Shown here: piece after piece, positions 4,339 to 56,421 of the stretch
How positions within the stretch are numbered: position 1 is the first letter of the stretch
Layout of the letters: each line of letters begins with the position of its first letter
Virus record (IMG/VR): IMGVR_UViG_3300026484_000465
Span: 1 to 56,421 of that record
DNA length: 56,421 nucleotides
Source of the DNA: a virus
Strand: one strand, 5' to 3'
Notes under the pieces: model-generated
What the model saw: the letters and a program-made list of their open reading frames with translations, nothing else
Database searches by the model: none
What the model was told of the DNA's origin: nothing
Program-made: the position numbers and the translations under genes

Positions 4339-4360
4339 CTAAAATTAACAAAAAAAAGGA
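4339..4360 (+). promoter_or_regulatory. Extended -10 promoter and A-tract leader before 4367
   Basis: TATGCTAAAATTAAC, then an A-run and GGATTAACA before ATG. The -10 box TAAAAT is at 4339-4344, with TG one base upstream of it. Confidence 0.7.
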
Positions 4361-4366
4361 TTAACA

Positions 4367-35427: not shown

Positions 35428-35799
35428 ATGGATTTACTAAAAGTAGCAAACGACCCATATGCGAGTTATTTAACAAAAACAGCCGCGGTAATCAGTGATT
35501 TTGAACAAGGAAGAATTACAGCTGATGAAGCGTTTGGAGCAGCTCAAGAAATGGGGATTGCACCACAAGATTTAGTTGCAGCTCAAGAAGTTTTATTTAA
35601 AGAAGCTTCAGAAAGTGCTAGCCTTGAAAAAGTAGCATCAATTGTAGATGACCCTTATTGCACACCACTTGAAAAAGTAGCAGCGATTGTAGACGGTATT
35701 GCTGCAGGAACTGTTGATTATGATGCAGGAACTCAAGTTGCAGCTCAATTAGGATTTGATGCTCAAGACATGGAATATATCTACGCACAAACTCACTAA
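35428..35799 (+). CDS. Multi-site KTA/KVA protein, core/scaffold candidate
   Basis: 123 aa, acidic and Ala-rich, helical. The hydrophobic-x-K-x-A motif occurs five times: LLKVA (3-7), LTKTA, LFKEA, LEKVA and LEKVA. The units around DPYASYLTKTAAVISDFEQG and DPYCTPLEKVAAIVDGIAAG are internal repeats. If the motif is a protease site, this protein would be cut into small peptides as phage core or scaffold proteins are. It has its own promoter and terminator, which fits high expression. Confidence 0.7.
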   Translation: MDLLKVANDPYASYLTKTAAVISDFEQGRITADEAFGAAQEMGIAPQDLVAAQEVLFKEASESASLEKVASIVDDPYCTPLEKVAAIVDGIAAGTVDYDAGTQVAAQLGFDAQDMEYIYAQTH

Positions 35800-37813: not shown

Positions 37814-38221
37814 TTATCTAGACAAACTTCCTGCTGTTTGAATGTATTTTAATGCTTCATCTGGTTTAGAACCTCTATTAATATCAGCAATAATTTTAGC
37901 TGTTGCTAAATCAACATTACCGCCATATTGATAAATTTGATATATAGCATCTGCCATCAATTCTTTACTATTACTCATTCTAGGAGATAAAGTATAAACT
38001 GCTCCAGCCCATGCTTTTAATTTACTATCAGATACTTTTCCTAGTTCTGGATGTTTTCTTTTAGCATATTTAACAATACTACCCAATTTAACTTTAAACA
38101 TTAAATCATTTGTTTGTTGAATTACTTTTTCAGCCCCTACTAATGCAGCTGTTGTTCCACCTACTGTCATAGCAATATCTTCTAATTTGCTTTTTTCAGC
38201 TATTTTTTCTAAATAAGACAT
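37814..38221 (-). CDS. KTA-type tagged protein, 135 aa
   Basis: N terminus MSYLEKIAEKSKLED fits the tag pattern (LEKIA at 4-8). A weak hydrophobic stretch follows (TVGGTTAALVGAEKV), then a helical domain with LGKVSDSKLKAWAGAVYTL and, at the end, KYIQTAGSLSR. First gene of the minus operon, with its own TATAAT promoter divergent from 38286. A minor head protein is inferred. Confidence 0.65.
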   Translation of the reverse strand: MSYLEKIAEKSKLEDIAMTVGGTTAALVGAEKVIQQTNDLMFKVKLGSIVKYAKRKHPELGKVSDSKLKAWAGAVYTLSPRMSNSKELMADAIYQIYQYGGNVDLATAKIIADINRGSKPDEALKYIQTAGSLSR

Positions 38222-41365: not shown

Positions 41366-41770
41366 ATGAGAGCATTTGAACTTATCAAAACTGCAGGTGC
41401 AGAATATGGATACAACGATCAAGACAGTGAGGGATTATCTCCAGCAGCTAAAGCAGCAATTGCAGCAGGACTTCTTACAGCAGGTGGAGCAGGATTAAAA
41501 TATGGTGGTCCTAAATTAGCAGATCACATGATGGGTAAAATTGACAGTTTAGCTGATGATAGTGAAAAAATGAAAAAAATGTTAGCAAAGAAAAAAGGTG
41601 ATAAAGAACTTTATGAAAATGCTAGTAAGGCTAAAGAAGCTTTAAAAGCAAAATGGCAAAAATTAAAAGACATTGGTGAACACAAACATGGTGGAAAAGC
41701 ACTTATTGGTGGAGGTGTTACAACTGCAGCTCTTGCCGGAACAGATTACTACCAAAGAAATAGAGGGTAA
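41366..41770 (+). CDS. KTA-tagged glycine-zipper membrane protein
   Basis: 134 aa, same plan as the 4367 protein: MRAFELIKTAGAEYG at the N terminus, hydrophobic segment about 28-50 (AAKAAIAAGLLTAGGAGLKYG), a Lys-rich helix with DELY/ENASKAKEALKAKW-type spacing, a second segment about 110-126 (KALIGGGVTTAALAG), and an end in RG. Single-gene unit with promoter and terminator. Likely a paralogue of 4367 and a capsid-internal protein. Confidence 0.75.
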   Translation: MRAFELIKTAGAEYGYNDQDSEGLSPAAKAAIAAGLLTAGGAGLKYGGPKLADHMMGKIDSLADDSEKMKKMLAKKKGDKELYENASKAKEALKAKWQKLKDIGEHKHGGKALIGGGVTTAALAGTDYYQRNRG

Positions 41771-41780
41771 CCTCTCTTTT
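41762..41780 (+). terminator. Terminator hairpin with the stop codon in a GNRA loop
   Basis: AGAGG (41762-41766) pairs with CCTCT (41771-41775); the loop is GTAA and holds the TAA stop codon of the 41366 gene. A pyrimidine-rich tail follows. Confidence 0.6.
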
Positions 41781-41827
41781 CTCTTCTTCTATATTTTCTA
41801 CTTACTTCTTTTAATAAAATCAAAATT

Positions 41828-41850
41828 ATGCTACAATAAATAAAAAAAGG
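41828..41850 (+). promoter_or_regulatory. Extended -10 promoter before 41857
   Basis: TTATGCTACAATAAAT, A-run, GGATTACA before ATG. TACAAT is at 41832-41837. Confidence 0.7.
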
Positions 41851-41856
41851 ATTACA

Positions 41857-42318
41857 ATGAATTCGAAAAGTTACTTTTTACTTAAAACAGCTGATGACAA
41901 TAATAATGGTGTCGGAACAGGGACTATTGCAGGAGGTGCTTTGGCATTAGGTGGGCTTGGGAGTATGGGATACGGACATAATTTAATTAATAAAGCTACA
42001 CCTGATACTCCACTATTTTCAAAAGGAAATCAACTTGGTACATTAGGATATGGTGCTTCAAATATCCAGCAAGCTAAAGCAAGTGGGGAAGCAAACACAA
42101 AAGCCATTAATGATTTTGTTGAGGGTCATGGTGGAAAAGAAAAATTTGATGTTAACAAGCTAAATGAAGTAGAAAAAGGGAAATACAATAAAATGTTAAC
42201 AGATGGTGAAAATATAGCTAATCTAGGAAAAGGTTCTAAATTTATGCATTATGGAAAAATTGGCGGACTACTTGGTGGCGGAATGATGTTAGGGTCAATG
42301 TTAACCAATAATAATTAA
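41857..42318 (+). CDS. KTA-tagged Gly-rich membrane protein
   Basis: 153 aa. N terminus MNSKSYFLLKTADDNNNG (LLKTA at 8-12). Hydrophobic Gly-rich segments at about 23-40 (TIAGGALALGGLGSMGYG) and 131-150 (KIGGLLGGGMMLGSML), with a polar middle. Two-segment architecture as in 4367 and 41366. It starts a small unit with 42331. Inferred packaged head protein. Confidence 0.7.
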   Translation: MNSKSYFLLKTADDNNNGVGTGTIAGGALALGGLGSMGYGHNLINKATPDTPLFSKGNQLGTLGYGASNIQQAKASGEANTKAINDFVEGHGGKEKFDVNKLNEVEKGKYNKMLTDGENIANLGKGSKFMHYGKIGGLLGGGMMLGSMLTNNN

Positions 42319-42330
42319 AAAGGATATAAA

Positions 42331-42585
42331 ATGAAGATAGAACAAATTTCTGAACTATTAGAAAAAACAGCTGCTCATATAGAGATGATTGAGAATGAAA
42401 ACAACATGTTAAGAAAGAAATTAGAAGAAAGTATTTCTGCAGTTAATTTAAACAAAGAAGCTTCTTTTGATTTTTCAGACACAGCGAATGATGACTATGG
42501 TTCTTTGGGGCAACCTTCTAATTATTCCCCGAGCAATCAAATTTCTTCTAGTCAAAAATTAGAAGAATTCTTAAATAATTTATAA
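42331..42585 (+). CDS. Small coiled-coil protein with KTA motif
   Basis: 84 aa. N terminus MKIEQISELLEKTAAHIEMI (LEKTA at 10-14); residues 15-40 form a short heptad-type helix (IEMIENENNMLRKKLEES). The tail is Ser/Asn-rich. It lies just before a terminator and the capsid genes. It may be a core or scaffold-associated protein. Confidence 0.65.
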   Translation: MKIEQISELLEKTAAHIEMIENENNMLRKKLEESISAVNLNKEASFDFSDTANDDYGSLGQPSNYSPSNQISSSQKLEEFLNNL

Positions 42586-42598
42586 AAAAACTATCTAT

Positions 42599-42630
42599 AA
42601 ATAAGAGCATTTCTTATTTTTGTTTTTTTT
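42599..42630 (+). terminator. Intrinsic terminator after 42331
   Basis: AAATAAGA (42599-42606) pairs with TCTTATTT (42612-42619), followed by a long T-run. Confidence 0.75.
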
Positions 42631-42631
42631 G

Positions 42632-42664
42632 TATAAAATAATGGTAATAAAACCAAAAAAAAGG
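42632..42664 (+). promoter_or_regulatory. Promoter region for the capsid genes
   Basis: GTATAAAATAATGGTAATAA lies between the terminator and the A-run plus GGAT before 42673. Either TATAAA (42632) or TGGTAATAA (42643-42650) could be the -10 box; the second fits the usual distance to GG. Confidence 0.5.
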
Positions 42665-42672
42665 ATAAGTAG

Positions 42673-43059
42673 ATGAAGAATATTGATATTGTAAGAGGTT
42701 ATAGAACCTTCAGTCATGAAGACTTATATGATGCTGACGCAACTGTAACAATCGTGCCAGGAGATATTATAGGCCTTAATGGAAACAAAATAACATTAGA
42801 AAAAACGCATAAAGAAGCTGGAATAGCTCTTGAATCAAACAAAGATATTGCTGGTAATAAACCAAGTGGGAAAATTCCAGTATGTGTTAGTAATTTTGTT
42901 GTAAGATTTTATAGACCAGTTCCAGATGAAGTTAATTTGGGTGATCCTGTTACAGTTATTGATGGAAAGCCATCTAAAACAGACGATGATCATACAGTAA
43001 TTTGGGGATATGTTACAAAAATAGACGAAACATCTTTTGATGTTAGAGTAAATTATTAA
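42673..43059 (+). CDS. Capsid decoration/stabilisation protein candidate
   Basis: 128 aa, directly before the major capsid gene. Beta-rich with ATVTIVPGDIIGLNGNKI, VCVSNFVVRFYRPV and DPVTVIDGKP; the pattern resembles small head-stabilising proteins that sit on the capsid surface. No KTA motif, as expected for a protein added from outside. The call rests on order and fold pattern. Confidence 0.55.
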   Translation: MKNIDIVRGYRTFSHEDLYDADATVTIVPGDIIGLNGNKITLEKTHKEAGIALESNKDIAGNKPSGKIPVCVSNFVVRFYRPVPDEVNLGDPVTVIDGKPSKTDDDHTVIWGYVTKIDETSFDVRVNY

Positions 43060-43071
43060 AAAGGATAAAAC

Positions 43072-44007
43072 ATGGGTATTAATGTAGAAACTCCAGTAAT
43101 TCAACAAAACACAGGGTTAATTAAAGCAGCTTATGCTGGTGGTGACCTTTTAAAACAAGCTATGGATAACAGTACATACTTTATTAGAGATAAAGTAAGA
43201 GAACTTGGTTTTGCTAGAAAAGTAATTGAACCTATTTTTGTTACAAGTGCAGATTTAGACAGAGTTCCAAACAATGAGCAACCTGCTATCATCTTAGAAA
43301 AAGATATCGAAAGTAGAGGGATGACAGTGCCATTCAGAGGGCAAGGAGAACAAAGATATTGGGAAAGAGAAGACATGGTTGTTAATTTCCAAAAAATTGA
43401 ATCAGAAAGAATTAACAAATCTAAATTCGAAATGATGACTTCTAAAACTCCATATACTGAAGTTCTTAAAAAAAGAATTGTTGAAGAGGTTCAAAAAGTT
43501 GAAGATGAAACTTTAATGAACGGTTTCAATGCTATCATAGAGAAAGCAGAAGAAGAAGCTCCTGGTACACAATATCAAGAATTAGAGGGTGGATTAAGCA
43601 AAACAAACATTAAAATATTAATACAAATGCTTTCAAGATTAAAAATGATCCCGCCAACAGGACCAAAACCAAAAATCTTAATGACACAAAATCTAAAATT
43701 AGAATTAATTGAATTAGGAATGATTGAAATTGGTGATTCTAATGTTGGAAAATATTGGAATGAAGGTGTAGTTGGAGTAGATAGATTATTTAATGTCCCT
43801 GTAGTATCTACAATTAAAAATGATTTAGTAAAAGATAATGAAATGTTTATTGTTGCTCCTCAAGATTACTTTGGAAGATTCTTTATTTTACAAGATCACA
43901 CAATGGTAATCAAAACAGAAGCTGATATGATGAATATGTGGACATATGCAGCTATGGGTATGGGATTCGTTAATACAAAAGGTGTATGTAAAGTTACATT
44001 ATCTTAA
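43072..44007 (+). CDS. Major capsid protein
   Basis: 311 aa. It looks like an HK97-fold capsid protein: an N-terminal arm, an E-loop region (EKDIESRGMTVPFRGQG, then YWEREDMVVNFQKIES), a helical spine (EVLKKRIVEEVQKVEDET), and a P-domain with LIQMLSRLKMIPPTGPKPKI and PVVSTIKNDL. At residues 16-20 it has LIKAA, matching the LIKTA motif of the small tagged proteins, so a 20-residue N-terminal piece may be removed at maturation. A strong terminator after it suggests very high expression. Confidence 0.8.
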   Translation: MGINVETPVIQQNTGLIKAAYAGGDLLKQAMDNSTYFIRDKVRELGFARKVIEPIFVTSADLDRVPNNEQPAIILEKDIESRGMTVPFRGQGEQRYWEREDMVVNFQKIESERINKSKFEMMTSKTPYTEVLKKRIVEEVQKVEDETLMNGFNAIIEKAEEEAPGTQYQELEGGLSKTNIKILIQMLSRLKMIPPTGPKPKILMTQNLKLELIELGMIEIGDSNVGKYWNEGVVGVDRLFNVPVVSTIKNDLVKDNEMFIVAPQDYFGRFFILQDHTMVIKTEADMMNMWTYAAMGMGFVNTKGVCKVTLS

Positions 44008-44027
44008 TGTAACTCCTCTTTTGAGGA

Positions 44028-44062
44028 TTACAAAATAATATACGTATTGTTTTGTAATTTTT
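44028..44062 (+). terminator. Strong terminator after the major capsid gene
   Basis: A 13-bp stem (44028-44040 with 44045-44057, one T-G pair) closed by a TACG loop, then five T. A smaller hairpin, GTAAC-TCCTC-TTTT-GAGGA-TTAC, just upstream shares the TTAC bases and cannot form at the same time. Confidence 0.85.
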
Positions 44063-44076
44063 AAAAAGGATAATGG

Positions 44077-45030
44077 ATGTTTTTTAACAATTCTCAAAGA
44101 TATGTTTCTATAGCAAAACAAATTATTAACGAAATAAATCATGGGGGAGATAACCCAGAAGAATTATTAAATAAGTATGCTAAAGAATACAATTTAAATA
44201 ATAATATGAAACAAAGAGTTGTAGAAGAATACAATGTAAATATGTTTTTAAGTAAATTAAAAGATGGTAATCACCAAGAGCATTATGTGTTATTGAATCC
44301 TGTTATTAATGAAACACAAAAATGGAATTCTATTATTGAGAAAAATAATAAAGAAAATGAGCATAAAAAGAATATGACCAAGACAGCCTTTTACAATGAA
44401 GAAGCTAATATTGTATTTAAAAACAATTCAATGGAATATGAGCATGACCCACTTTTAAATGGTTCTTTTTCTAACAAAACATTGGTAAGTTCTTTTGAGT
44501 ACGGGGACACCTCTGATTTACTTAAAAATGCTTCTTACAAAGAAAAACTCAGAGAAGAAGAAGGATTTAAAGAATTAGTAAAAACTGCTCATTATAAAGG
44601 TCATGAAGTTATAAATCAATTAGCAAATGATCTAACTAAAGTAGCAAATATTTCAACAGGAGCTACAAAAACCATAATTTATGATTTAATTAAAGAAGGG
44701 CATGAGGATATTGCTAATACTGTTATGGAAAATTGCAAATATAAACCAAACGAAATACTCGGGGCAAAAATGACAGATGGTATATTTGAACAAGATTTAC
44801 CTCTATTAAAAACATCTCAAGAACTTATAAAAGAAGCAACTATAAGTAAACTAATTATGAGAGTAATATCAGAAAAAGGTATGAACCATATCGGAAGTGC
44901 TTTAAATAAAATAAAAACTATGGCAGGGCCTAAAAATAGAGCAAAAATATATATGGCTTATGTAATGAATAAATTTTTTACAGAAAAAAAACCTGGTGCA
45001 TTACATAATGACTTTATTCAAAATGCTTAA
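44077..45030 (+). CDS. Prohead core/scaffold candidate with five KTA-type sites
   Basis: 317 aa, hydrophilic and helical, directly after the capsid gene. The motif occurs at MTKTA, LLKNA, LVKTA, LTKVA and LIKEA between residues about 102 and 260, each followed by a polar or aromatic residue. Proteins cut many times by the prohead protease are typical core or scaffold parts (as in T4). It could equally be a protein with several functions. The start follows AAAAAGGATAATGG. Confidence 0.65.
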   Translation: MFFNNSQRYVSIAKQIINEINHGGDNPEELLNKYAKEYNLNNNMKQRVVEEYNVNMFLSKLKDGNHQEHYVLLNPVINETQKWNSIIEKNNKENEHKKNMTKTAFYNEEANIVFKNNSMEYEHDPLLNGSFSNKTLVSSFEYGDTSDLLKNASYKEKLREEEGFKELVKTAHYKGHEVINQLANDLTKVANISTGATKTIIYDLIKEGHEDIANTVMENCKYKPNEILGAKMTDGIFEQDLPLLKTSQELIKEATISKLIMRVISEKGMNHIGSALNKIKTMAGPKNRAKIYMAYVMNKFFTEKKPGALHNDFIQNA

Positions 45031-45041
45031 AAGGATATAAT

Positions 45042-45176
45042 ATGGAAAACAATCAAAATTTAATTAAAATAGCTCAGGTAGTTAAAGAGCACGCAAAAAA
45101 ATGGTATTTAAAAAAAATGGCAGCGTTAAAAATAATAGACACTATAGATGCATATAAAGAGGCAATGAAGAACTGA
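45042..45176 (+). CDS. Very small KTA-type tagged protein
   Basis: 44 aa, ribosome site AAAAGGAT before ATG, in operon with 44077. MENNQNLIKIAQVVKEHAKKWYLKKM: tag-like LIKIA at 7-11, then a basic amphipathic helix. After cleavage a 33-residue basic peptide would remain, which could bind DNA or membrane. Confidence 0.6.
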   Translation: MENNQNLIKIAQVVKEHAKKWYLKKMAALKIIDTIDAYKEAMKN

Positions 45177-45204
45177 TTTACTAATTCAGCTTTCTCAAGC
45201 CATA

Positions 45205-45230
45205 GGCCCCAATTTTAATTTATGGGGACC
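45205..45230. terminator. Hairpin between convergent genes
   Basis: GGCCCC (45205-45210) and GGGGACC (45224-45230) pair with one bulged A. No T-run follows directly, so its strength is doubtful; it is the only structure in the 45177-45230 gap. Confidence 0.4.
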
Positions 45231-45758
45231 TTACTGCTCTTTTTTGCTGTTATTGACTGCTTTGTGTGCAAAATAAGCTTGAGCTGCCCCTAAAGTGCCT
45301 ATTCCACCCATAGTTTGTCCTTGTAATTTAGCTCTTTGTTTTAACATATTTTTAATTTTATCTTTACTTTGGCCTAATTCCTTAAGAATTTCCTCTTCTG
45401 ATGAATCTCCAAGTTCTTTTGTAGCTTGTTTGTAGTCACGAATACGGTGTAACCCTTTTCCTAAAGCACCTGCCATTACACCTATTCCCGTACTTCTGTT
45501 TATTTCATCATCACTAGACCCTATTTTTTTTGCCAATAATGGAGCAGCTATAGACCCTCCTAATAAACCTAATTCAGTTGGTAAAGAAAAAGTCTTATAT
45601 TCACCTTTACCCTGTAAAACATTAACAAGATAAGGAATGTTTTCTTGCAATAGAACCCCTGACGCAACTCCACCAGCTGCAGAAAGTCCATCACCTATCA
45701 TCTTTTTTTTATCAGAATCTTTTTTGTCCGCTGTCTTAATTAAATTAAAACTTTTCAT
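45231..45758 (-). CDS. KTA-tagged multi-segment Gly-rich membrane protein
   Basis: 175 aa. N terminus MKSFNLIKTADKKDSDKK is nearly the same as that of the 4367 protein. Four Gly/Ala-rich segments follow: about 24-36 (GDGLSAAGGVASGVLL), 65-80 (LGLLGGSIAAPLLAKK), 93-104 and 150-163 (GQTMGGIGTLGAAQAY). Single-gene unit on the minus strand, sharing an overlapping promoter with 45807. Inferred head-internal protein. Confidence 0.75.
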   Translation of the reverse strand: MKSFNLIKTADKKDSDKKKMIGDGLSAAGGVASGVLLQENIPYLVNVLQGKGEYKTFSLPTELGLLGGSIAAPLLAKKIGSSDDEINRSTGIGVMAGALGKGLHRIRDYKQATKELGDSSEEEILKELGQSKDKIKNMLKQRAKLQGQTMGGIGTLGAAQAYFAHKAVNNSKKEQ

Positions 45759-45777
45759 TGTTAATCCTTTTTTTAGT

Positions 45778-45787
45778 TATAATTATA
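45778..45787. promoter_or_regulatory. Two -10 boxes overlapping by 2 bp, facing opposite ways
   Basis: TATAAT on the plus strand (45778-45783, for 45807) and TATAAT on the minus strand (45782-45787, for 45758) overlap. Both sides have an A-run and GGAT. Only one polymerase can use the site at a time. Confidence 0.75.
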
Positions 45788-45806
45788 TCTAAAAAAAAGG
45801 ATATTT

Positions 45807-47252
45807 ATGGCATTAAATAATTTTGTTAATATAATAACAGACATCTATAACCCAGCCTCTGTGGATAGTTTGTTTGAGCAATACGGAGTAGAAGGATTCA
45901 GTGGAACAGATGCTAGTCTAGTTTCTATGAATGCACCAGCTTGGTTATTTGTTGTTGCATACAAAACTCAAGCAGACAACGGAGATGATGACGGAAAAAT
46001 TAAAGATTCTGTTTCAAATATTTTATTAAAGAAAAATAGTGACAACATTGTTCTATACAAGGAACACAACTATAGTAGTCAAAATATATTGGCACAAGCA
46101 CTTTTATATTTTAGAGGTTCTAATTATAAAGTAGATAGTATCATTGATTATTACAACGATGTGACTGGTGATGATAAGACAATTGAAACTATATCACATC
46201 AAGACACAAATAATGCATCAGTTGCAACTATAATATTTTCAGATGTTAAATATATTAAAGGGTTGGATGTTGGGAAAACCATTTCGACATACAAAGCTGC
46301 TTTTATCGATGTTAATTACAAAAATGATTACCCTTTAGCAGGGTTAATATTTAAGGCCTTGTTTAATGATGATATACAAGATAAAGTTAAAGAAATTATT
46401 GATAAATTAAAAGACAATGATACTTCTGGTAGGTTTGGTAAACACGATTCTATTTTTAAGAAATTTTCAACAAATAATACCGAACCAGTAATAGAAGAAC
46501 TATGTCAATTAATATCTGTGTTATCAAATGAAAAAGCAGACGAAGTCTTAAGTAAAGACGCTTATTTATATGATATATTAGCAAGTTTAACAGACAATGT
46601 TAATACATCACCAACCCCTATTATTGAATCTATAGATTTTAGTAAATGTACTGGTTTTTCATATTTAGAAACAGGTTTCTCTCTTTCTACTTATAAAAAT
46701 AAGGTGGCAGATTACTACCCTGTATTTGGCTTAATGAATGTTTACATTTACAACAGAGGGGCAACAATTAACACTGATGTTATTAATGCTTTCATTGATA
46801 ATAATTTAAGTAATCCATACACATTTCCATATGAAGATACAATAGTGTCTGGAGTTAATTTAATATCTCAATTAGCTTACACTTGGTCTTTTGATAATGA
46901 AATAGGAGGGTTGTCTGATTTATTAACAAAACTATTTTCTCAAATAGAAACAAATATTACATTTGACGACGGAGACTCTAATTTTCAAAAAACAGTAAAA
47001 ATTAATGCTGTAGCAGGGTTTGTATCTGAGTTTACAGAAGGTTCGCAAATAAATATGTATGGAGCAATTAATATTTTATTTAATAAAATAAATGCTAAAC
47101 ATAAAAAATGGTGCAAAGATAATAACAAGAATTTTGATGATTATGATTCTGATGAAGGATATGGTAGTGACAGAGATAAAGTTTTTGGTTTATACTATAT
47201 TGATTTTGACAGTTATAAAAAGTGGTGTCAAAACTTTGGAAAAGACTTTTAG
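45807..47252 (+). CDS. Acidic unrecognised structural protein
   Basis: 481 aa, acidic with Asp clusters (NGDDDGK, DYDSDEGYGSDRDK). Mostly soluble mixed fold; no KTA motif, signal or membrane segment. Own promoter. Its stop overlaps the stop of the minus-strand gene at 47249 with no room for a terminator between. It may be a surface or tail protein, but nothing specific can be recognised. Confidence 0.65.
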   Translation: MALNNFVNIITDIYNPASVDSLFEQYGVEGFSGTDASLVSMNAPAWLFVVAYKTQADNGDDDGKIKDSVSNILLKKNSDNIVLYKEHNYSSQNILAQALLYFRGSNYKVDSIIDYYNDVTGDDKTIETISHQDTNNASVATIIFSDVKYIKGLDVGKTISTYKAAFIDVNYKNDYPLAGLIFKALFNDDIQDKVKEIIDKLKDNDTSGRFGKHDSIFKKFSTNNTEPVIEELCQLISVLSNEKADEVLSKDAYLYDILASLTDNVNTSPTPIIESIDFSKCTGFSYLETGFSLSTYKNKVADYYPVFGLMNVYIYNRGATINTDVINAFIDNNLSNPYTFPYEDTIVSGVNLISQLAYTWSFDNEIGGLSDLLTKLFSQIETNITFDDGDSNFQKTVKINAVAGFVSEFTEGSQINMYGAINILFNKINAKHKKWCKDNNKNFDDYDSDEGYGSDRDKVFGLYYIDFDSYKKWCQNFGKDF

Positions 47253-47557
47253 GTCTCTTCTTCCCCTATTGTTTTTTCTAAATAATCTACAACTCTAATA
47301 CACTCTCCATTTTGTGTCCAACTTTCTTTTTCTCTTATAATATGAAATCTATTTGGGTTATGAAGTATATTTGTCATAAATTCTGCAAATTCCGATGCAG
47401 AAGTATCTTCTGCTATTAAAAATACTTTAGTTTTGTATTCAAACCCTTTAAAAGGGTTAGTTTTCATTTCTGCCCCACTTGGCCTAGGCATTCCACTTAA
47501 ATGTGTTTGTAACCTCTCGGCACTATTATTTAATATTTTATTTATTTCTTGAAACAT
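47249..47557 (-). CDS. Small unrecognised protein
   Basis: 102 aa, last gene of the minus operon from 48330; AAAAAGG lies 6 nt before ATG inside the preceding gene (16-base overlap). It contains VFLIAEDTSASEFAEFMTNIL and a C-terminal acidic end (EKTIGEEET). Soluble, mixed fold. No motif recognised. Confidence 0.6.
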   Translation of the reverse strand: MFQEINKILNNSAERLQTHLSGMPRPSGAEMKTNPFKGFEYKTKVFLIAEDTSASEFAEFMTNILHNPNRFHIIREKESWTQNGECIRVVDYLEKTIGEEET

Positions 47558-47805
47558 GTTTTACCTTTTTCTTCTATTAGATGGTTATATAGTATGATTG
47601 AAACTCTTCTGTATTTTTTAAAATCATTCAGAGTGATATTGGAGAAAGGAATTTTGTCACTTAAACCGATAAAGAACATAACAATATTATAAATCTCATT
47701 AGTTGTCTTGAATCTATTATCTGATATAAAAGATAATTCATCAGGTGTTAGTTTTTTTTGTTTATGTAGATTTAATAACTTATTGTTAAATTGCTTTAAG
47801 GTCAT
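47542..47805 (-). CDS. Small unrecognised protein
   Basis: 87 aa, ATGA overlap with the preceding gene. Helical and basic (MTLKQFNNKLLNLHKQKKLTP; ending KTCFKK). It may be a tail or head accessory protein; function not recognised. Confidence 0.6.
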   Translation of the reverse strand: MTLKQFNNKLLNLHKQKKLTPDELSFISDNRFKTTNEIYNIVMFFIGLSDKIPFSNITLNDFKKYRRVSIILYNHLIEEKGKTCFKK

Positions 47806-48062
47806 TTAACCCCTTTAAAAGAGGACACCTCTGATAATGCCTTTCTTGCCCCATCATCGGAATTAAGCATCCCAACTCCTCCCATTAGAAGTGAACCACG
47901 ACCAATTACTTTATTCAGCGTTGATGTGTTACCGAATCCATTATTGTGTATTAGATTCTTACTAAAGTTACCTAACATTTTAACACCACTTATAGCCGGA
48001 CTAAGTAAATTAGGAAATGCTTTTTTTTCCAAATAAATATGTGCTTTCATTTTTTCACGCAT
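47802..48062 (-). CDS. Small Gly-containing protein with KTA-type tag
   Basis: 86 aa, or 82 aa from the second ATG (48050), which gives MKAHIYLEKKAFPNL, a tag of the usual length with LEKKA. A hydrophobic Gly-rich segment IGRGSLLMGGVGML lies near residue 53. It overlaps the preceding gene by 8 bases at the longer start. Inferred small head protein. Confidence 0.6.
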   Translation of the reverse strand: MREKMKAHIYLEKKAFPNLLSPAISGVKMLGNFSKNLIHNNGFGNTSTLNKVIGRGSLLMGGVGMLNSDDGARKALSEVSSFKGVK

Positions 48063-48330
48063 CCCATTTTAAAATTTTATCTGATTTATGAAATGCAATA
48101 GTTTTCATTGCGGGAAGTGTTTTTTTACAGTTTGTTAAAGCACATCTTTTTTTACTTATTGTTTTTACATAAAATTTACCAAGTCCCTTTAGATAAATAA
48201 CACCTTCATTTTTTCCTCTCATATTCTTTACTATATTAATAAAATTATCCATAACTTTTCTAACCACAACTTCATCAACATCTGTATTCCTGGATATATC
48301 TTTAACCAGTTCAGTATATATCTTCTTCAT
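48055..48330 (-). CDS. HU/IHF-like DNA-binding protein candidate
   Basis: 91 aa. Residues about 4-55 follow the HU plan: helix LVKDISRNTDV, helix DEVVVRKVMDNFINIVKN, then strand GVIYLKGLGKFYVKT with the conserved L-x-G-L-G-x-F turn. The DNA-binding arm and last helix are shortened or replaced by a basic, Cys-containing tail (KKRCALTNCKK). It may bend or compact phage DNA. First gene of the four-gene minus operon; its promoter is not clear (ATATAT near 48345). Confidence 0.6.
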   Translation of the reverse strand: MKKIYTELVKDISRNTDVDEVVVRKVMDNFINIVKNMRGKNEGVIYLKGLGKFYVKTISKKRCALTNCKKTLPAMKTIAFHKSDKILKWDA

Positions 48331-48396
48331 ATGTAGAACCTTTTTTCATATATTTTAACAAAATAATAAAAACATTACAATAAAAAAAATAAATTT

Positions 48397-48420
48397 GCTA
48401 TAATAATCACAAAAAAAAGG
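48397..48420 (+). promoter_or_regulatory. Extended -10 promoter before 48428
   Basis: TTTGCTATAATAATC, A-run, GGAT; TATAAT is at 48399-48404. Confidence 0.75.
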
Positions 48421-48427
48421 ATAGAAA

Positions 48428-48925
48428 ATGGATAGAAATGAACTATTATCTGAGATAGTTGCTTCAGCTGAACAAGAAGTAATGGGGCTTGATAAAACAG
48501 CTAGTTATACTGAAAATCCTGAAGCTGTAAAAAAAATACCTGTGGACAAACCAACAAGCGTTATTTCTAAATTAAAAGAAAGAAGCTTTCACAATCAGGC
48601 AACTTATACAGAGGATTTACATGAAATAAACAATGTAGGAGGCGGGCCAAATACTTCTCCTGAAATGGTTTACCCTAAGCTATCTACTGACAAAGAGACA
48701 AATATAACAAAACTAGCTCATTCTAGTGATGAAATAGTTTCTTTAATAAGAGAAGCTGAACAAGAATTAAATAAAAAAGCTTCTGTTGATGAGACAAATA
48801 TTTCTTATTTTTTAGAAAAAACAGCAGCAGAAACGATAGCTGAAATTAATGATTTAGAAAAAACTGCTGAAGAATTTGGGACTATGGTCGCTAGAGCATT
48901 TTTAAGTGAAATAGGGAGATATTAA
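48428..48925 (+). CDS. Multi-site KTA protein, core/scaffold candidate
   Basis: 165 aa, acidic and helical. Five motif copies: LDKTA (21-25), ITKLA, LNKKA, LEKTA and LEKTA, spaced through the chain. As with 35428 and 44077, complete cutting would leave only short peptides, fitting a core protein. It has its own promoter and is coupled (TAATG) to the next small gene. Confidence 0.65.
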   Translation: MDRNELLSEIVASAEQEVMGLDKTASYTENPEAVKKIPVDKPTSVISKLKERSFHNQATYTEDLHEINNVGGGPNTSPEMVYPKLSTDKETNITKLAHSSDEIVSLIREAEQELNKKASVDETNISYFLEKTAAETIAEINDLEKTAEEFGTMVARAFLSEIGRY

Positions 48926-49086
48926 TGAAAAAAAATACTTCAAAAGTAGGTAATGAATTAAGAAAGTTAGCAAGCAATATATCTTCAGGGAAAATACAAA
49001 TTGAAGGTAACTTATCTTTTAGAGAACTTTCTAAAACTGCTACAATTAATAGATTACAAATATTAATGGGTGTCATTAAAAACTAA
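48925..49086 (+). CDS. Small KTA-containing protein
   Basis: 53 aa, ATG overlapping the preceding stop and stop overlapping the next ATG, so it is held between two coupled genes. Contains LRKLASNIS (12-20) and LSKTATINR (36-44). Basic. Probably a minor core or head peptide. Confidence 0.6.
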   Translation: MKKNTSKVGNELRKLASNISSGKIQIEGNLSFRELSKTATINRLQILMGVIKN

Positions 49087-50555
49087 TGGCCATAACGGTA
49101 GATGATGACATCATTTATGTGGATGATGGAGAATATTCTTTTAATGACATATATGAAAAAGTAAAATCAGACTTTAATGATGATGCTCAAAAAGCAGGTA
49201 ACAACTTTTATTATTTTAACTACAATATTGTAGTGGGTAAAAATACTGCGGCTACATTAAAAGATTTGAATGTATCAGTTTGGATTGATAAAGAAAATTT
49301 TCAAATACATCAAGACTCAACTCTCCAATTAGGGGAGTTAATTGATAACAAGCCTGCCAATGGATGCAAGATAAATATGCCTAACGTTAAATTAGGATAT
49401 GGTTTTGGATGTTCCAATAAAGATGGTGATTATACATTGTCTGGTGACTTGTATATCTACGATAGTTATCTTGATATATTTGGCTTTTGGGGGTTTTTTA
49501 ATGACCCAGAAAAACAAAAAGTAGAAATAATAGATACCACAATAAATGGGTTTGGAAGATTTTCTGGTAAAGAATCTGTAATTGAAAATGTTATTTTTGT
49601 TAATGCTCATAAAAAATACGGGACAATATCAACTCTCGGAGCAATAAATAAAATAAGCAATATTCAGATAAATCACACAGATAAAGATAATGATGGTGTG
49701 TGTTTTTATTTTAATGGAGATGTATCTGGAAATTGTTTAATTAATAATATTTCCTTACCTGGAGATTATAAAACTTTACTTTATTGTGAAGAGGCTGATA
49801 ATGATAAGTTTTTCACAATTCTTAACACAAATATTGAGAATGTGGAATGTGATTTTAAGGATGAACACAGTTACTTGTTAATAAAGAATTCTATTACCTT
49901 ATTACCCGATGAGGATGATTATAGTGTACAGATATTCGATTCATCAAACAATAAAATAGATGAGTTTAATACGAACGATAGAACCACAACAGAATTATTA
50001 TATAGAAAGAAAAATAAAGATAATGATATTTTTTACGAAAATTATAAGGTAATTATAAACAATAATATAGAATTCAGAATAACACCTTCTAACGCTCTAA
50101 ATATTCCTATACAATCTATCTATAAAAAAATGAGACCATTGTGGGATACTCCATTTTTCTATGGAGAAGAAGAAACTATTTATTTAGGAGATCTATACTC
50201 ATTTATTGTTAAATCTTATAGCAAACCAGAAATAAAACTATATAAAACAGGTAACGGAGTTATGTGTGAACCAGATAATATAACTGAACAAAGTGTAGAA
50301 AATTTATGGAAAGTAACTTTTTTGATAGGAGAATTGGGGGAAGAGACTGAAGATGGAGAAAAATGGGTTGATGGTGTTTATTATTTAAAAGGGATAGATA
50401 ATAGTAGTGAACAGGTATTTACTAAAGTAATTTATATCAGAAGAGAAGAAGAAAAAGATTCTAATAAAACAGATGTTAATAAAATAATTAATTTAATTAA
50501 AGACACTTCCGGTAATCTTTCTTCAAATAATAATGGCGGTAAAATAATTATGTAA
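49086..50555 (+). CDS. Second beta-helix fibre/spike-like protein
   Basis: 489 aa, one-base overlap with the preceding gene. N-terminal and middle parts have repeated short strands with Asn/Asp turns (GDLYIYDSYLDIFGF, VEIIDTTINGFGRFSG, SVIENVIFVNAH, NKISNIQINH), as in parallel beta-helices; similar in style to the 1999 protein but not closely alike. The C-terminal third is a different beta-rich domain. A receptor-binding or head-fibre protein is likely. Confidence 0.6.
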   Translation: MAITVDDDIIYVDDGEYSFNDIYEKVKSDFNDDAQKAGNNFYYFNYNIVVGKNTAATLKDLNVSVWIDKENFQIHQDSTLQLGELIDNKPANGCKINMPNVKLGYGFGCSNKDGDYTLSGDLYIYDSYLDIFGFWGFFNDPEKQKVEIIDTTINGFGRFSGKESVIENVIFVNAHKKYGTISTLGAINKISNIQINHTDKDNDGVCFYFNGDVSGNCLINNISLPGDYKTLLYCEEADNDKFFTILNTNIENVECDFKDEHSYLLIKNSITLLPDEDDYSVQIFDSSNNKIDEFNTNDRTTTELLYRKKNKDNDIFYENYKVIINNNIEFRITPSNALNIPIQSIYKKMRPLWDTPFFYGEEETIYLGDLYSFIVKSYSKPEIKLYKTGNGVMCEPDNITEQSVENLWKVTFLIGELGEETEDGEKWVDGVYYLKGIDNSSEQVFTKVIYIRREEEKDSNKTDVNKIINLIKDTSGNLSSNNNGGKIIM

Positions 50556-50586
50556 AGCATCTTTTTGTAAAAGAAAATAAAATAGG

Positions 50587-50620
50587 TATAATACAACCCT
50601 TACATCAAAAAAAAAGGATA
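50587..50620 (+). promoter_or_regulatory. Promoter before 50625
   Basis: AGGTATAATACAA with TATAAT at 50587-50592; the A-run plus GGAT starts farther downstream than usual (about 22 nt), giving a longer leader. Confidence 0.6.
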
Positions 50621-50624
50621 AAAA

Positions 50625-51272
50625 ATGACAAAATGGTTTATAAACAAATCAAATAGATTTTTGATTACTACTGACAGAGACAGTATGAATGTTAACGATT
50701 GGGAAGTTTTTATAACTGACATAGTTGAGAAAACTTCTAGTGAAGAAACATCAAATGTTGAGATAAGTGAAATTATTGTTGATGTTGAAGATGTCGAAGG
50801 TGCTATAGCTTCAGATTCTGCTGCTGGAACAAGAGTTATCCATTTGGATACAGATAAAGGGGCTAAATTTAAAGTTGGAGACAAAATAAAAATACCTACA
50901 GTTGATGGTGATGATTACAGAGAAATAAAATCAATTAGTGGTGACGATATTGTTATTTACAAAAAATTATCTGCTGATGTTAAAGCTGATACAGATGACA
51001 ATGGAGAAAATGATAATAAAATTACATTAGTTGGTAACACAGGTGACTATGTTGTAAAAGTTACATCTTCTGATTTGTCTACACCATTAGAATCAGGTAA
51101 AGATTACCAAGTAATGGTACAATCTAGAGACTTACAAATGGATATGAAATCTGAAGTATTCCATGTAACACCTTATGATATAGATGAGTTGGGTGATGAC
51201 TTAGATGAAATCAAAGGTAAGATTGATGAATTAAGCAACAATACTACAACATCGGGAAGAATATTTATTTAG
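50625..51272 (+). CDS. Acidic beta-rich structural protein
   Basis: 215 aa. Contains AGTRVIHLDTDKGAKFKVGD and IPTVDGDDYREIKSISGDDI, a small barrel-like pattern also present in the 13649 protein. C terminus has a short helix (DELGDDLDEIKGKIDEL) that may oligomerise. No KTA motif. A virion surface or tail-associated protein is likely; family not recognised. Confidence 0.6.
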   Translation: MTKWFINKSNRFLITTDRDSMNVNDWEVFITDIVEKTSSEETSNVEISEIIVDVEDVEGAIASDSAAGTRVIHLDTDKGAKFKVGDKIKIPTVDGDDYREIKSISGDDIVIYKKLSADVKADTDDNGENDNKITLVGNTGDYVVKVTSSDLSTPLESGKDYQVMVQSRDLQMDMKSEVFHVTPYDIDELGDDLDEIKGKIDELSNNTTTSGRIFI

Positions 51273-51286
51273 TAAAAGGATAGAAA

Positions 51287-51655
51287 ATGGCTGATAAAAA
51301 TTATAGATTCTCGGAATGTTATATTAGAGTAAAGAGTCAAGCATTTTTTATTTCTAAAACAAATTTAGTTGGTGAGAAACTTCCGGAAGGGATTCAAGTT
51401 ACAACTAACACTATTACAGGTATGTTGATAAAAAGAGTAGGGACTAAACAAGTATTGTTTATTGATAGTTCTTTAGAACAAAAAGGGAGATTTGATTACT
51501 CTTTTGTTTTATTTGATGAAGCAGACAAAAACAAAAAAGTTTTAGAACAAAATAAAAAAGTACTATCAAATCTTGTTAATGATCTATTTGTAGATATTCC
51601 ACCATTCTTTCCAGTAGAAGATAGTGAAGATAGTGAAGAGAGTGAAAGTAAATAA
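51287..51655 (+). CDS. Small unrecognised protein with acidic tail
   Basis: 122 aa, beta-rich first part (FSECYIRVKSQAFFISK), helix near 83-100, and an acidic end (EDSEDSEESESK). In operon with 50625, ending in a terminator that includes its stop codon. Confidence 0.6.
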   Translation: MADKNYRFSECYIRVKSQAFFISKTNLVGEKLPEGIQVTTNTITGMLIKRVGTKQVLFIDSSLEQKGRFDYSFVLFDEADKNKKVLEQNKKVLSNLVNDLFVDIPPFFPVEDSEDSEESESK

Positions 51656-51685
51656 TCTCACTTACTTTCTTCTCCTCTTTTTTTG
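51644..51685 (+). terminator. Terminator overlapping the stop codon of 51287
   Basis: GAAAGTAA (51644-51651) pairs with TTACTTTC (51662-51669); the TAA stop is at the stem-loop border (51653-51655). A pyrimidine tract with seven T follows. Confidence 0.65.
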
Positions 51686-51696
51686 AATTCATTTAT

Positions 51697-51727
51697 GTTA
51701 TAATATGATAAAAATAAATTATTAAAG
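51697..51727 (+). promoter_or_regulatory. Extended -10 promoter before the protease unit
   Basis: TTATGTTATAATATG, TATAAT at 51699-51704, then an AT-rich leader and AAAGGAT before 51736. Confidence 0.65.
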
Positions 51728-51735
51728 GATAATAA

Positions 51736-52497
51736 ATGAATTCTACTTCTTTTTTATACAAAAAGGCGGGGCTTTATGAACAGCAATCCAATAGAGAACT
51801 GCCTCCCATAAAAACAACTCCACCAGAAGAAAAACAAAGTATTTTGCAAAACATTAAAAATAAATTTAATAAAGCAACTGACCTTGTTGCAACAAAAGCA
51901 GAAAATGGAATATTAAGACAACAACTTAAAAGTCAAACTGATAATGTTGACGAATGGAAAAGCAGACATGCAAATGTGTTTGAAGAACTAAATAAAACAA
52001 AAACTTCTTTGGATGATTTAGAAGCTTCTAAAATGGAATTAGAGGCTAGGCTAAAAAGACAGATTGGGGCATTAAGAAGATTAAAACATGAAGATAAAAT
52101 TCAAAACAAACAACAAGTTATGGCATTGGAAAATCAAATAAATCATTTATCAGGTCAAATATCTGCTCACTCAAAAACTATTTCAAACTACAAACAACAA
52201 TTAAAGTCAGCAGAGGAGATTATTAATGATAATACTCAAGATATAATACAGAAAGAAAATACAATAAAAACATTAAAAACAACTCTTGATGGACACAAAG
52301 AAGAAATAGTTGGTTTAAATAAAAGATTGGATGAACATAAGAACACTATAGAAGAGCTAACTAAAACTCTTGGAAAAACAGAAACTTCAAATAAGTATCT
52401 TAAATGGGGAGCAGGAATTGCTATCCCAACAGTAGGAATGGGAGGATATTTAATGGGTAAATCAAGTAATTCAACAGGAGGAAATAATGCTAACTAA
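51736..52497 (+). CDS. Long coiled-coil protein, scaffold/core candidate
   Basis: 253 aa. Tag-like N terminus MNSTSFLYKKAGLYE (LYKKA at 7-11). Residues about 55-220 form a continuous coiled coil (e.g. ELNKTKTSLDDLEASKMELE). A short Gly-rich hydrophobic end (GAGIAIPTVGMGGYLMG) follows at about 226-243. It is encoded directly before, and overlapping, the prohead protease, the usual place of scaffold or core genes. Confidence 0.65.
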   Translation: MNSTSFLYKKAGLYEQQSNRELPPIKTTPPEEKQSILQNIKNKFNKATDLVATKAENGILRQQLKSQTDNVDEWKSRHANVFEELNKTKTSLDDLEASKMELEARLKRQIGALRRLKHEDKIQNKQQVMALENQINHLSGQISAHSKTISNYKQQLKSAEEIINDNTQDIIQKENTIKTLKTTLDGHKEEIVGLNKRLDEHKNTIEELTKTLGKTETSNKYLKWGAGIAIPTVGMGGYLMGKSSNSTGGNNAN

Positions 52498-53152
52498 ATA
52501 CATTGACGGAGATGCTTACTTAGTAACGCCAGCACATGCTAAACATTGTAATGGTAGTTGTGATTGGTTACAAAAAGAAGCTAGTGTAACACCAGAATCA
52601 GTACATTTTTTTGACAATTTAAAACCAAAACCAGACCATGTGTATCTATTAACAATAGCAATGACAGCAGGAGAATTTTTTGGAGCTAACAAAAATGGAG
52701 ACTATTTTAGAGAACAGGATCTAAAAAAATATTACAAAGATTTTAAAGGTGCTGGAGTTTTCTGGAATCACGACAACAAAGATATGAGTAAATCAAGTGG
52801 AAAAGTTATTGAGGCTTTCTACAATGAACATATGCATAGAGTTGAATTAATTATAGAGTTCCATAAAGATAAAGCTAGATATATTCCTAGTTATATAAAA
52901 GATAAAAAACCTATAGCAGTTTCAATGGGATTAAAAACATCATCGGAAGTATGTTGTATATGTGGTAATGTTACAAGAAATAGTTATGCTACCAGATGTA
53001 GTCATCTTAAATATCAAATGAATCAAGTTCTTGATGATGGAAGAAAAGTTTATGCTATAAGTAATACACCTCTTAAGATATTTGATATTTCTGTTGTTTT
53101 CAATCCAGCTGACAGAACTGCTTATACTTTATACACAAAATCAGGAACTTAA
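52487..53152 (+). CDS. Prohead maturation protease
   Basis: 221 aa. Probable catalytic His95 in VFWNHDNKD with SSGKV following, and Ser146 in IAVSMGLK, the His and Ser of herpesvirus-type phage prohead proteases. A Cys/His cluster (CCICG near 156 and CSH near 171) probably binds zinc; the end FDISVVFNPADRTAYTL is conserved in such enzymes. A WLQKEAS motif (27-33) may be its own processing site. It would cut core, capsid and tagged proteins in the prohead. Strong AGGAGG before ATG; 11-base overlap with the upstream gene. Confidence 0.8.
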   Translation: MLTKYIDGDAYLVTPAHAKHCNGSCDWLQKEASVTPESVHFFDNLKPKPDHVYLLTIAMTAGEFFGANKNGDYFREQDLKKYYKDFKGAGVFWNHDNKDMSKSSGKVIEAFYNEHMHRVELIIEFHKDKARYIPSYIKDKKPIAVSMGLKTSSEVCCICGNVTRNSYATRCSHLKYQMNQVLDDGRKVYAISNTPLKIFDISVVFNPADRTAYTLYTKSGT

Positions 53153-53174
53153 TCTAAAAAAAGAACAGGAGGGA

Positions 53175-53456
53175 TTAACCCACTAGGGTCATTGTCCCAT
53201 CTTTGTTCAAATTATAAGCGATACAATCGCTTATATCCTGTCCCTTTTTCCCCAACAACACTTTGAACTGGGCTTCTTTTGCCCCGTTCCATGTTAGGGT
53301 CGCTGGGTCTATCGACGCCAGCTGATTCCCTTCAGTGGTGAAGAGAGACCATTTACCCTCTTGCACCCTTACTCTGAAGGGAACTGGATCTCCCCATGGG
53401 AGCTGCAATTCTGCAACCCCCATAGAGGAGAACAACTTTAAGTCAATTTTTGCCAT
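53175..53456 (-). CDS. GC-rich foreign-looking small protein
   Basis: 93 aa from the ATG at 53456, after AAAAAAGGAGAAAAA; an upstream in-frame ATG (53504) lacks a good site. By hand count the gene is about 47% G+C, far above its AT-rich neighbours, with codons such as CTG, CCC, GCC and GGG that are rare here. The protein (MAKIDLKLFSSMGVAELQLP at the N terminus) is soluble and beta-rich, with no KTA motif. It lies on the opposite strand between two head genes. A recent acquisition is likely; function unknown. Confidence 0.7.
   Translation of the reverse strand: MAKIDLKLFSSMGVAELQLPWGDPVPFRVRVQEGKWSLFTTEGNQLASIDPATLTWNGAKEAQFKVLLGKKGQDISDCIAYNLNKDGTMTLVG
53214..53234. repeat. Perfect 9-bp inverted repeat inside the GC-rich gene
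   Basis: ATAAGCGAT, ACA, ATCGCTTAT. It lies in codons near the gene's 3' end. Confidence 0.8.
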
Positions 53457-53520
53457 TTTTTCTCCTTTTTTTTTGGATTTTTCGGCTATATATATATAAC
53501 CCATTAAGTAAGTTTTTTTT

Positions 53521-53543
53521 GATATAATAATACAAAAAAAAGG
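53521..53543 (+). promoter_or_regulatory. -10 promoter before 53550
   Basis: T-run, GATATAATAATAC, A-run, GGAT; TATAAT is at 53523-53528. Confidence 0.7.
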
Positions 53544-53549
53544 ATTACA

Positions 53550-53981
53550 ATGAATGCGAGTGAATTTATTAAGGTGGCCTCTAACAAAGACGTAGACAAA
53601 AGATATGACATAAATCCATATGATGTAGCAGAGTTAGCAGGAGCCGCGGGTACGGTAGGCGGGGCAGGGTATGCCGGATATAACCATATTAAAAAGCACA
53701 ATGATAGGGAAGCTATTAAAGAAAACATGTTAGAAAAAGCTTTAAAAAACAGTTCTGATAAAGAGAAAAAAAGCATTATGAAAGCTATTGAGCAAGATGC
53801 TGAAGATTACTTTAAAAACAAAACTGAAAATATTTTAAGCTCATACAAAGCCTCTGGGGTTGAAAAAGAATTTAAAGATTTAGCACAAAGAGAACATGGA
53901 ATGCCAAAAAAAATAGCATTAGGAAGTATGCTTGGTGGAGGCGCTGTTATGATTGGTTCTAACTTGATGAATGATGAATAA
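53550..53981 (+). CDS. KTA-type tagged Gly-rich membrane protein
   Basis: 143 aa. N terminus MNASEFIKVASNKD (FIKVA at 6-10). Gly/Ala-rich segment at about 28-44 (ELAGAAGTVGGAGYAGY) and a C-terminal one at about 124-140 (KIALGSMLGGGAVMIGS), separated by a charged helix. Same plan as 4367, 41366 and 41857. Single-gene unit right after the protease region. Confidence 0.7.
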   Translation: MNASEFIKVASNKDVDKRYDINPYDVAELAGAAGTVGGAGYAGYNHIKKHNDREAIKENMLEKALKNSSDKEKKSIMKAIEQDAEDYFKNKTENILSSYKASGVEKEFKDLAQREHGMPKKIALGSMLGGGAVMIGSNLMNDE

Positions 53982-55679: not shown

Positions 55680-56421
55680 ATGGGTTTTACGAAATTAGAT
55701 TCTTCTCCTGAAGAAAAAAACAAAGAAACAATAAAAGAAATTATTCCTATTATAGAAAAACATTTTCCTTTAAGCGGGAATTTTTATACATTAGATTTAA
55801 AAAATTTTACAGTAAAAGAAAATAATGCTTCTATGAATGAAATTAAAAATACTATATTAAAAGGTGGAAGTATTTTTAATGAGGTTTACGCTGATGCTAC
55901 ACTTATAAAAAATCAAAATAAAAAAGTTATTGATAGAAAGAAAAAAGTATTAGTGATGAAAATACCAGCTTTTACTAAGAAGCTAAGTTATATTATTGAT
56001 GGAAATTCTTTTACTATTCCTAATCAACAAAGATTAAAGCCTGGTGCTTATTTAGTGGAAAGAAAGAATGGTGAGATTGTAACAATTTTCAACACTAAAG
56101 AAAATAAACAATTTAAGTTAAAATTAAATCCAGAAACAGGTATTTTTTATTTTGACATAGGTAGTAGCAACATACCAGCTGTATCCATTCTAAAAGCAAT
56201 GGGAATGAGTGATACCGAAGGAGAACAAGCATTAGGTAAAGAATTATATAAAACAAATATAGAAAAAAGTTCTCCAGATGATCTTGATAAATTCTTAAAC
56301 AAATCTTACTCTTTACCAAAAGAGATAAGTGATAAAACTCCTCAAGAAAAAATTAAATATTTATTTAGCAAAATGAAAGTCGACCCCGATGTAACACATA
56401 GAAACTTTAATGTAAAAACAG
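55680..56421 (+). CDS. RNA polymerase beta-subunit-like protein, 3' end cut by window edge
   Basis: 247 residues visible, ribosome site AAAAGGG before ATG. Residues about 93-125 (VMKIPAFTKKLSYIIDG, then RLKPGAYLVERKNGEI) follow the beta-subunit pattern P-x-x-T-x-x-G-x-F-I-I-N-G ... SPGVYF, and 161-180 (SSNIPAVSILKAMGMSDTEG) match KIP-V-T-V-LLRALGYSDEE. These are the protrusion/lobe parts of multi-subunit RNA polymerases, which some large phages encode. No catalytic region is inside the window. No KTA motif in the visible part. Confidence 0.55.
   Translation, partial: MGFTKLDSSPEEKNKETIKEIIPIIEKHFPLSGNFYTLDLKNFTVKENNASMNEIKNTILKGGSIFNEVYADATLIKNQNKKVIDRKKKVLVMKIPAFTKKLSYIIDGNSFTIPNQQRLKPGAYLVERKNGEIVTIFNTKENKQFKLKLNPETGIFYFDIGSSNIPAVSILKAMGMSDTEGEQALGKELYKTNIEKSSPDDLDKFLNKSYSLPKEISDKTPQEKIKYLFSKMKVDPDVTHRNFNVKT

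Follow-up and report, generated by a model that had tools for sequence, protein, structure and literature searches.

A hydrophobic-x-Lys-x-Ala motif as the predicted cleavage site of a prohead protease in a clade of related phages

Does a short peptide motif found on many proteins of one virus mark them for processing in the phage head? The IMG/VR virus record IMGVR_UViG_3300026484_000465 (hereafter the window, meaning the whole 56,421-nucleotide stretch; 56.4 kb, 28% guanine-plus-cytosine (GC) content and Lys-rich) raises this question, as a preliminary description had reported the motif Φ-x-K-x-A, where Φ is a hydrophobic residue, near the N terminus of at least ten of its proteins and had proposed a T4-like head-processing logic with a different motif. 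We located every instance that it named. We estimate a probability of roughly 0.85 that Φ-x-K-x-A is the cleavage site of the prohead protease of this clade (gene 52487), which would cut after the Ala and clip short tags from small cargo proteins.

The motif lay within the first 35 amino acids of 14 of 61 window proteins, relative to 3.4 expected and a maximum of 8 in 300 composition-preserving shuffles, and it started at or before residue 16 in 11 of 63 proteins (1.6 expected, shuffle maximum 5), a count that excludes the incomplete 565c at the window edge and the 44-amino-acid protein of 45042. Permuted motifs made of the same letters occurred zero to one times in this same interval of the window proteins. 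The sequence LIKTA was present at residues 6–10 in 4367, 41366 and 45758c and at residues 7–11 in 565c, which has a TTG start and is incomplete at the window edge. The other instances were LLKTA at 8–12 (41857), FIKVA at 6–10 (53550), LLKVA at 3–7 (35428), LEKIA at 4–8 (38221c), LEKTA at 10–14 (42331), LIKIA at 7–11 (45042), LYKKA at 7–11 (51736) and LEKKA at 11–15 (48062c). The large tail and fibre proteins carried only sporadic copies, as had been described for most of them. When nine window proteins were aligned with their orthologues, the motif Lys was kept in 73% of cells (50% for other Lys residues) and the motif Ala in 73% (47% for other Ala residues). Two motifs in 36742c, at residues 123 and 154, were rejected as candidates, their sites not being conserved in relatives.

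A genome of 28% GC that is rich in Lys might produce such a motif by chance or through its composition. This explanation was refuted by the controls, and we give it practically no weight: the shuffles preserved composition, the permuted motifs were rare, and the motif was enriched about 3- to 6-fold in all head-gene regions of relatives with GC contents of 0.37 to 0.67, so that enrichment was still evident at 67% GC. Environmental relatives were drawn from IMG/VR and included two contigs of approximately 161 kb. The motif was also in excess in the phage G gene region (26 sites vs. 10.4 expected), and mycobacteriophage I3 gave an ambiguous count (10 vs. 4.6); the head region of Gordonia phage Stormageddon showed no enrichment (4 vs. 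2.9) and was taken as lying outside the rule. When the same count was applied to T4 head proteins, L/IxE[AGS] was found 19 times (5.2 expected) and ΦxKxA 6 times (3.5 expected), while in the window head proteins ΦxKxA was found 23 times (2.3 expected) and L/IxE[AGS] 4 times (3.1 expected). The motif [ASG]xE[AGS] was not enriched in the window head proteins (2 vs. 4.0 expected). A scan of bacterial genomes matched one short metagenome contig and yielded no host.

The predicted enzyme was located where it had been described, in the same region as many of the motif-bearing genes, and it carries the motif itself:

52487 to 53152, plus strand: prohead (head maturation) protease, 221 amino acids, with invariant H95 and S146 and a match to PHROG 18299
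52568 to 52582, plus strand: predicted self-processing site LQKEA↓S at protease residues 28–32 (the arrow marks the predicted cut, here and below), with the motif ahead of the domain in relatives

Residues 74–212 of this protein matched the PHROG 18299 head maturation protease family (E = 1.2e-11), and H95 and S146 were invariant in 18 relatives, suggesting a phage-encoded head protease in which the conserved His and Ser are presumably catalytic. A search of Pfam returned no family match for it. Its nearest named relatives were those of Salmonella phage Arash and of the Vibrio phages D69, D181 and D148; Bacillus phage G and Gordonia, mycobacterial and Erwinia phages have more distant ones. Each of the 23 proteases compared had Φ-x-K-x-A immediately ahead of its domain, despite pro-segments that differed in length and sequence, and a second copy lay just past the domain in Arash, D69, the relative L070 and phage G.

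The major capsid protein showed a comparable arrangement:

43072 to 44007, plus strand: major capsid protein (MCP), 311 amino acids, with a family match to PHROG 2522 and to the phage G gp27 structure 6wkk; its Arash relative gp226 is annotated as MCP
43147 to 43161, plus strand: predicted maturation site LLKQA↓M at capsid protein residues 26–30, conserved in relatives

The PHROG 2522 major head protein family was matched by 13 of 20 members of the capsid protein family (best E = 2.1e-15), and a profile comparison matched the capsid protein (E = 6.5e-10) with PDB entry 6wkk, the Gp27 major capsid protein, which we take to be Bacillus phage G gp27. Relatives in Arash and D69 were 31–34% identical. 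Within an alignment of 13 MCPs, L26, K28 and A30 were invariant, and [L/M]-x-K-x-A occupied the same N-terminal place, directly ahead of the conserved region, in 30 of 30 complete MCPs, down to approximately 32% identity. The preliminary description had pointed to LIKAA at residues 16–20; that sequence is present, but it was not conserved and we rejected it as the main site, the conserved one being LLKQA at 26–30.

Three acidic helical proteins had been credited with about five motif copies each, and we counted five in 35428, six in 44077 and five in 48428. Together with two smaller proteins, they form a set of putative core components:

44077 to 45030, plus strand: scaffold- or core-like protein adjoining the capsid gene, six motif copies
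48428 to 48925, plus strand: scaffold- or core-like acidic protein, five motif copies
35428 to 35799, plus strand: acidic protein of net charge -15, five copies including an N-terminal LLKVA; six to nine copies in relatives
45042 to 45176, plus strand: 44-amino-acid core-like protein with the sites LIKIA and LKKMA, both kept in the relative G002
42331 to 42585, plus strand: 84-amino-acid coiled-coil-like protein with LEKTA at 10–14 and LNKEA at 40–44; of these, the site at 40 was retained in four of four relatives and that at 10 in two of four

Nineteen multi-site proteins from six genomes contained 141 sites, where about 15 were expected, and were used to define the sequence preference. At P3 only Lys was enriched (141 vs. 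14.6), Arg was not, and at P1 only Ala was enriched (141 vs. 14.8). Ser was the most enriched residue at P1' (48 vs. 0.7), followed by Ala and Gly; Leu predominated at P5 (109 of 141 sites), Glu and Asp were preferred at P6, and Thr, Val, Glu, Ile and Gln at P2. The full preference would thus read [E/D]-L-x-K-[T/V/E/I/Q]-A followed by [S/A/G]. The presence of a strict Ala ahead of a small residue suggests that the scissile bond lies after the Ala, between A and S, A or G.

N-terminal tags of 7–15 amino acids, each ending in the motif, were present on 10 to 12 window proteins, including the following:

533 to 565, minus strand: tag MNATQYLIKTA↓Y of gene 565c, which runs off the window start; complete in the relative G001
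4367 to 4396, plus strand: tag MRSFNLIKTA↓A of gene 4367-4801
38198 to 38221, minus strand: tag MSYLEKIA↓E of gene 37814-38221c; LHKIA in G005, poorly alignable in G002 and G006
41366 to 41395, plus strand: tag MRAFELIKTA↓G of gene 41366-41770
41857 to 41892, plus strand: tag MNSKSYFLLKTA↓D of gene 41857-42318
45729 to 45758, minus strand: tag MKSFNLIKTA↓D of gene 45231-45758c, within a 63-bp block in common with 4367
48018 to 48062, minus strand: tag MREKMKAHIYLEKKA↓F of gene 47802-48062c
51736 to 51768, plus strand: tag MNSTSFLYKKA↓G of gene 51736-52497, a coiled-coil protein
53550 to 53579, plus strand: tag MNASEFIKVA↓S of gene 53550-53981

Tags were enriched in the window, G001, G005, D69 and G003, and weakly so in G002. 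When the tagged cargo proteins of the window were compared with each other, no similarity was found past the tag. No informative match to the protease, the capsid protein or the cargo came from Pfam or NCBIfam, and a PHROG scan of the cargo gave only borderline matches of unknown function, to 53550.

One explanation for this distribution is recent duplication, which would have left the tagged genes with a common promoter and common 5' coding DNA. Genes 4367 and 45758c do share 63 bp at 92% identity (4346-4408 and 45717-45779 on the minus strand), extending from the ribosome-binding site (RBS) to codon 14 with nothing further in common, and late genes have a common promoter/RBS sequence. However, the LIKTA codons differ between most tagged genes, which suggests that selection acts on the protein; the proteins are dissimilar beyond the tag, and the motif is kept in core proteins of phages at approximately 30% identity. 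Duplication thus holds for the 4367/45758c pair alone and is disfavoured, as a very unlikely account, for the whole set. The block common to this pair does indicate that a tag can be transferred at the DNA level, as a cassette. We suggest tentatively, considering it less likely than not, that the late RBS plus tag might be a movable cassette in general: copying about 60 bp before any open reading frame would make its product a processed head cargo. The clade would in this way gather genes of unrelated origin for injected proteins, all read by a new Lys-P3/Ala-P1 protease code. A late-promoter-like block, approximately TATAAT and then AAAAAAAGGATT directly before the start codon with no obvious -35 element, was observed upstream of 4367, 41366, 41857, 45758c, 53550 and other late genes, both tagged and untagged.

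In order to relate the motif to virion presence, as the preliminary description had suggested, we used the published virion proteome of phage Arash (PMC10585845). The table row 'xxxxx' was taken as gp138, which is annotated as structural, and the row Gp225.1 was not mapped. Virion proteins with at least four unique peptides (n = 76) contained 76 sites, relative to 38.4 expected, and undetected proteins (n = 135) contained 20, relative to 22.7 expected; the virion excess was significant by label permutation (p = 0.0007). It was carried by gp97, gp220, gp222, gp223 and gp242; gp225, for which two peptides were detected, is another such protein. The expected association was therefore found as an excess confined to virion proteins, but it did not extend to a rank test across all proteins, which was not significant (p = 0.91), the excess being concentrated in a small number of many-site proteins.

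That rank test is one of several results that weigh against cleavage at the motif. No cleavage was observed here, and the cleavage sites are predictions. Homology of the window protease to T4 gp21 was not detectable (hhalign probability 0.1%), and the AlphaFold2 models of the protease and the capsid protein were too poor to use (predicted local distance difference test scores of 47 and 31, respectively). In G006 the enrichment of tags was weak (8 vs. 4.7), and Arash showed none (6 vs. 5.3); this unevenness among relatives suggests that cargo tagging varies and core processing is constant. Finally, the coverages printed for Arash gp206 and the scaffold-like gp223 (100%) and for gp100 (98.84%) would, at face value, mean that uncut molecules are present. 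The same table prints 100% even where a protein was identified by just two unique peptides, as is the case for several, which looks implausibly high, and so we gave these values little weight and did not use coverage as a test. The peptides that distinguish the two states in Arash would be GAAMSAFVR (cut after A29) and EAGAAMSAFVR (uncut) for gp226, and AAAEIDDFVK (cut) and QAAAAEIDDFVK (uncut) for the protease gp222.

Uncut molecules would be expected if the motif were instead an uncleaved peptide for docking or targeting, attaching to the scaffold or to the inner face of the capsid like encapsulin cargo peptides, and docking would also explain the cargo tags and the multiple copies in core proteins. 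It leaves unexplained, however, why the motif stands exactly at the boundary of the protease domain in all 23 cases and just ahead of the conserved region of the capsid protein, and a strict small P1 followed by Ser, Ala or Gly fits a scissile bond. We consider docking alone improbable.

Comparison among phages strongly supports the motif as the site that the prohead protease recognises and cuts: the capsid protein, protease and scaffolds keep it, its excess in Arash is limited to virion proteins, and the T4 control behaved as expected. As far as processing goes, the proposal of a T4-like logic acting through another motif is therefore right. The positions of the sites, their conservation, the specificity and the virion association come from sequence evidence; we infer the cutting itself, its order, the exact bond and the targeting. 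According to this model of proteolysis at Φ-x-K-x-A, the protease would be built into the prohead core and would self-activate by removing its own N-terminal pro-segment at LQKEA↓S. The capsid protein would lose its first 30 residues at LLKQA↓M (A30/M31), the multi-site core proteins 44077, 48428 and 35428, and probably 45042 and 42331, would be chopped into fragments, and tags of 8–15 residues would be clipped from a group of small cargo proteins, most of them unrelated to one another (565c, 4367, 38221c, 41366, 41857, 45758c, 48062c, 51736 and 53550). On the model of the T4 internal proteins, the tags of about 10 residues probably also act as capsid-targeting sequences (CTSs) that attach to the core and so carry cargo into the prohead.

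This last step is separable from the rest, as the motif may be a protease site only, with cargo entering through its own folded domains and the tags having no targeting role. The sites of core proteins and the tags have the same K-x-A core, and tags are scarce in Arash despite its complex virion, which speaks for this sub-case. Conversely, the window tags resemble in length the T4 internal-protein propeptides, which span 10–19 residues; in these, positions 4 and 7 chiefly serve targeting, and positions 8 and 10 serve processing (PMC9026906). The tags sit on otherwise non-homologous proteins, and a hydrophobic P4 was more common in window tags (9 of 12) than in scaffold sites (4 of 14; p = 0.047), which hints at extra information. 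We regard the absence of targeting as a serious possibility but lean against it. In MRSFNLIKTA, K at 8 and A at 10 parallel the T4 processing positions, which is a parallel and not a test.

Among known systems, T4 gp21 is similar in being a phage-encoded head protease with multi-site core proteins, an N-terminal capsid-protein pro-segment and tags of about 10 residues, and the T4 CTSs are likewise short N-terminal segments that end in a protease motif on several proteins (PMC9026906). The T4 rule, however, is L/I-x-E with Glu at P1 (PMC9026906), a motif not enriched in the window, where P1 is Ala and P3 is Lys. SPN3US gp245 and related giant-phage proteases also act on several head proteins with propeptides, through a short motif and with Ser favoured at P1' (PMC10052503), but in this phiKZ-type group P1 is Glu (A-x-E for gp245; PMC10052503) rather than Ala. 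Phage G gp19 protease and gp27 capsid protein are sequence relatives of the window proteins, and gp19 has LVKTA ahead of its domain, although gp27 lacks the conserved N-terminal site. The nearest named phages, Arash and D69/D181/D148, have a related protease and capsid protein, and in the two phages checked, Arash and D69, the motif is present in each protein at the corresponding place; they differ in GC content (53% in Arash and 45% in the Vibrio phages), in a C-terminal extension of the protease, and in the few clear short tags of Arash. The release sites of herpesvirus assemblin, from animal viruses, have Ala at P1 and Ser at P1' and are not known to require Lys at P3. We found no description of a Lys-P3/Ala-P1 (K-x-A) phage head-protease motif in the searched literature, which did not include subscription literature.

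If correct, this rule would provide a readable code for head-processed proteins across a broad and almost unannotated set of phages (28–67% GC; kin of Arash, D69 and phage G), permitting the prediction of mature capsid termini, scaffolds, protease boundaries and likely injected proteins from sequence, and it would extend prohead-protease specificity past the preference for Glu at P1 that has been published for T4 and SPN3US. The tags could also supply a new cargo-loading tag for phage-head work.

Several neighbouring features were observed. Tagged or multi-site cargo proteins (4367, 41366, 41857, 45758c, 53550; Arash gp97, L026:5924-7243) often contain Gly/Ala-rich, weakly hydrophobic segments, and such proteins are perhaps membrane-active injected proteins. 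A gene for a phage RNA polymerase beta subunit begins within the window and runs off its end (55680-56420; NCBIfam beta-subunit match, E = 2.5e-8); its relative in Arash, gp206, ranks first in abundance in the virion table. The RNA polymerase beta N termini read MPKSAS in Arash (L023:93-4670) and MPKKAS in D69 (L024:6580-11163), possibly a five-residue version of the site, which is absent from the window relative. A conserved 128-amino-acid protein encoded at 42673-43059, just ahead of the capsid gene, occupies the place that the decoration protein gp26 has in phage G. At the window edge, a long, near-perfect direct repeat was seen by eye at 1-250, in the 3' part of 565c.

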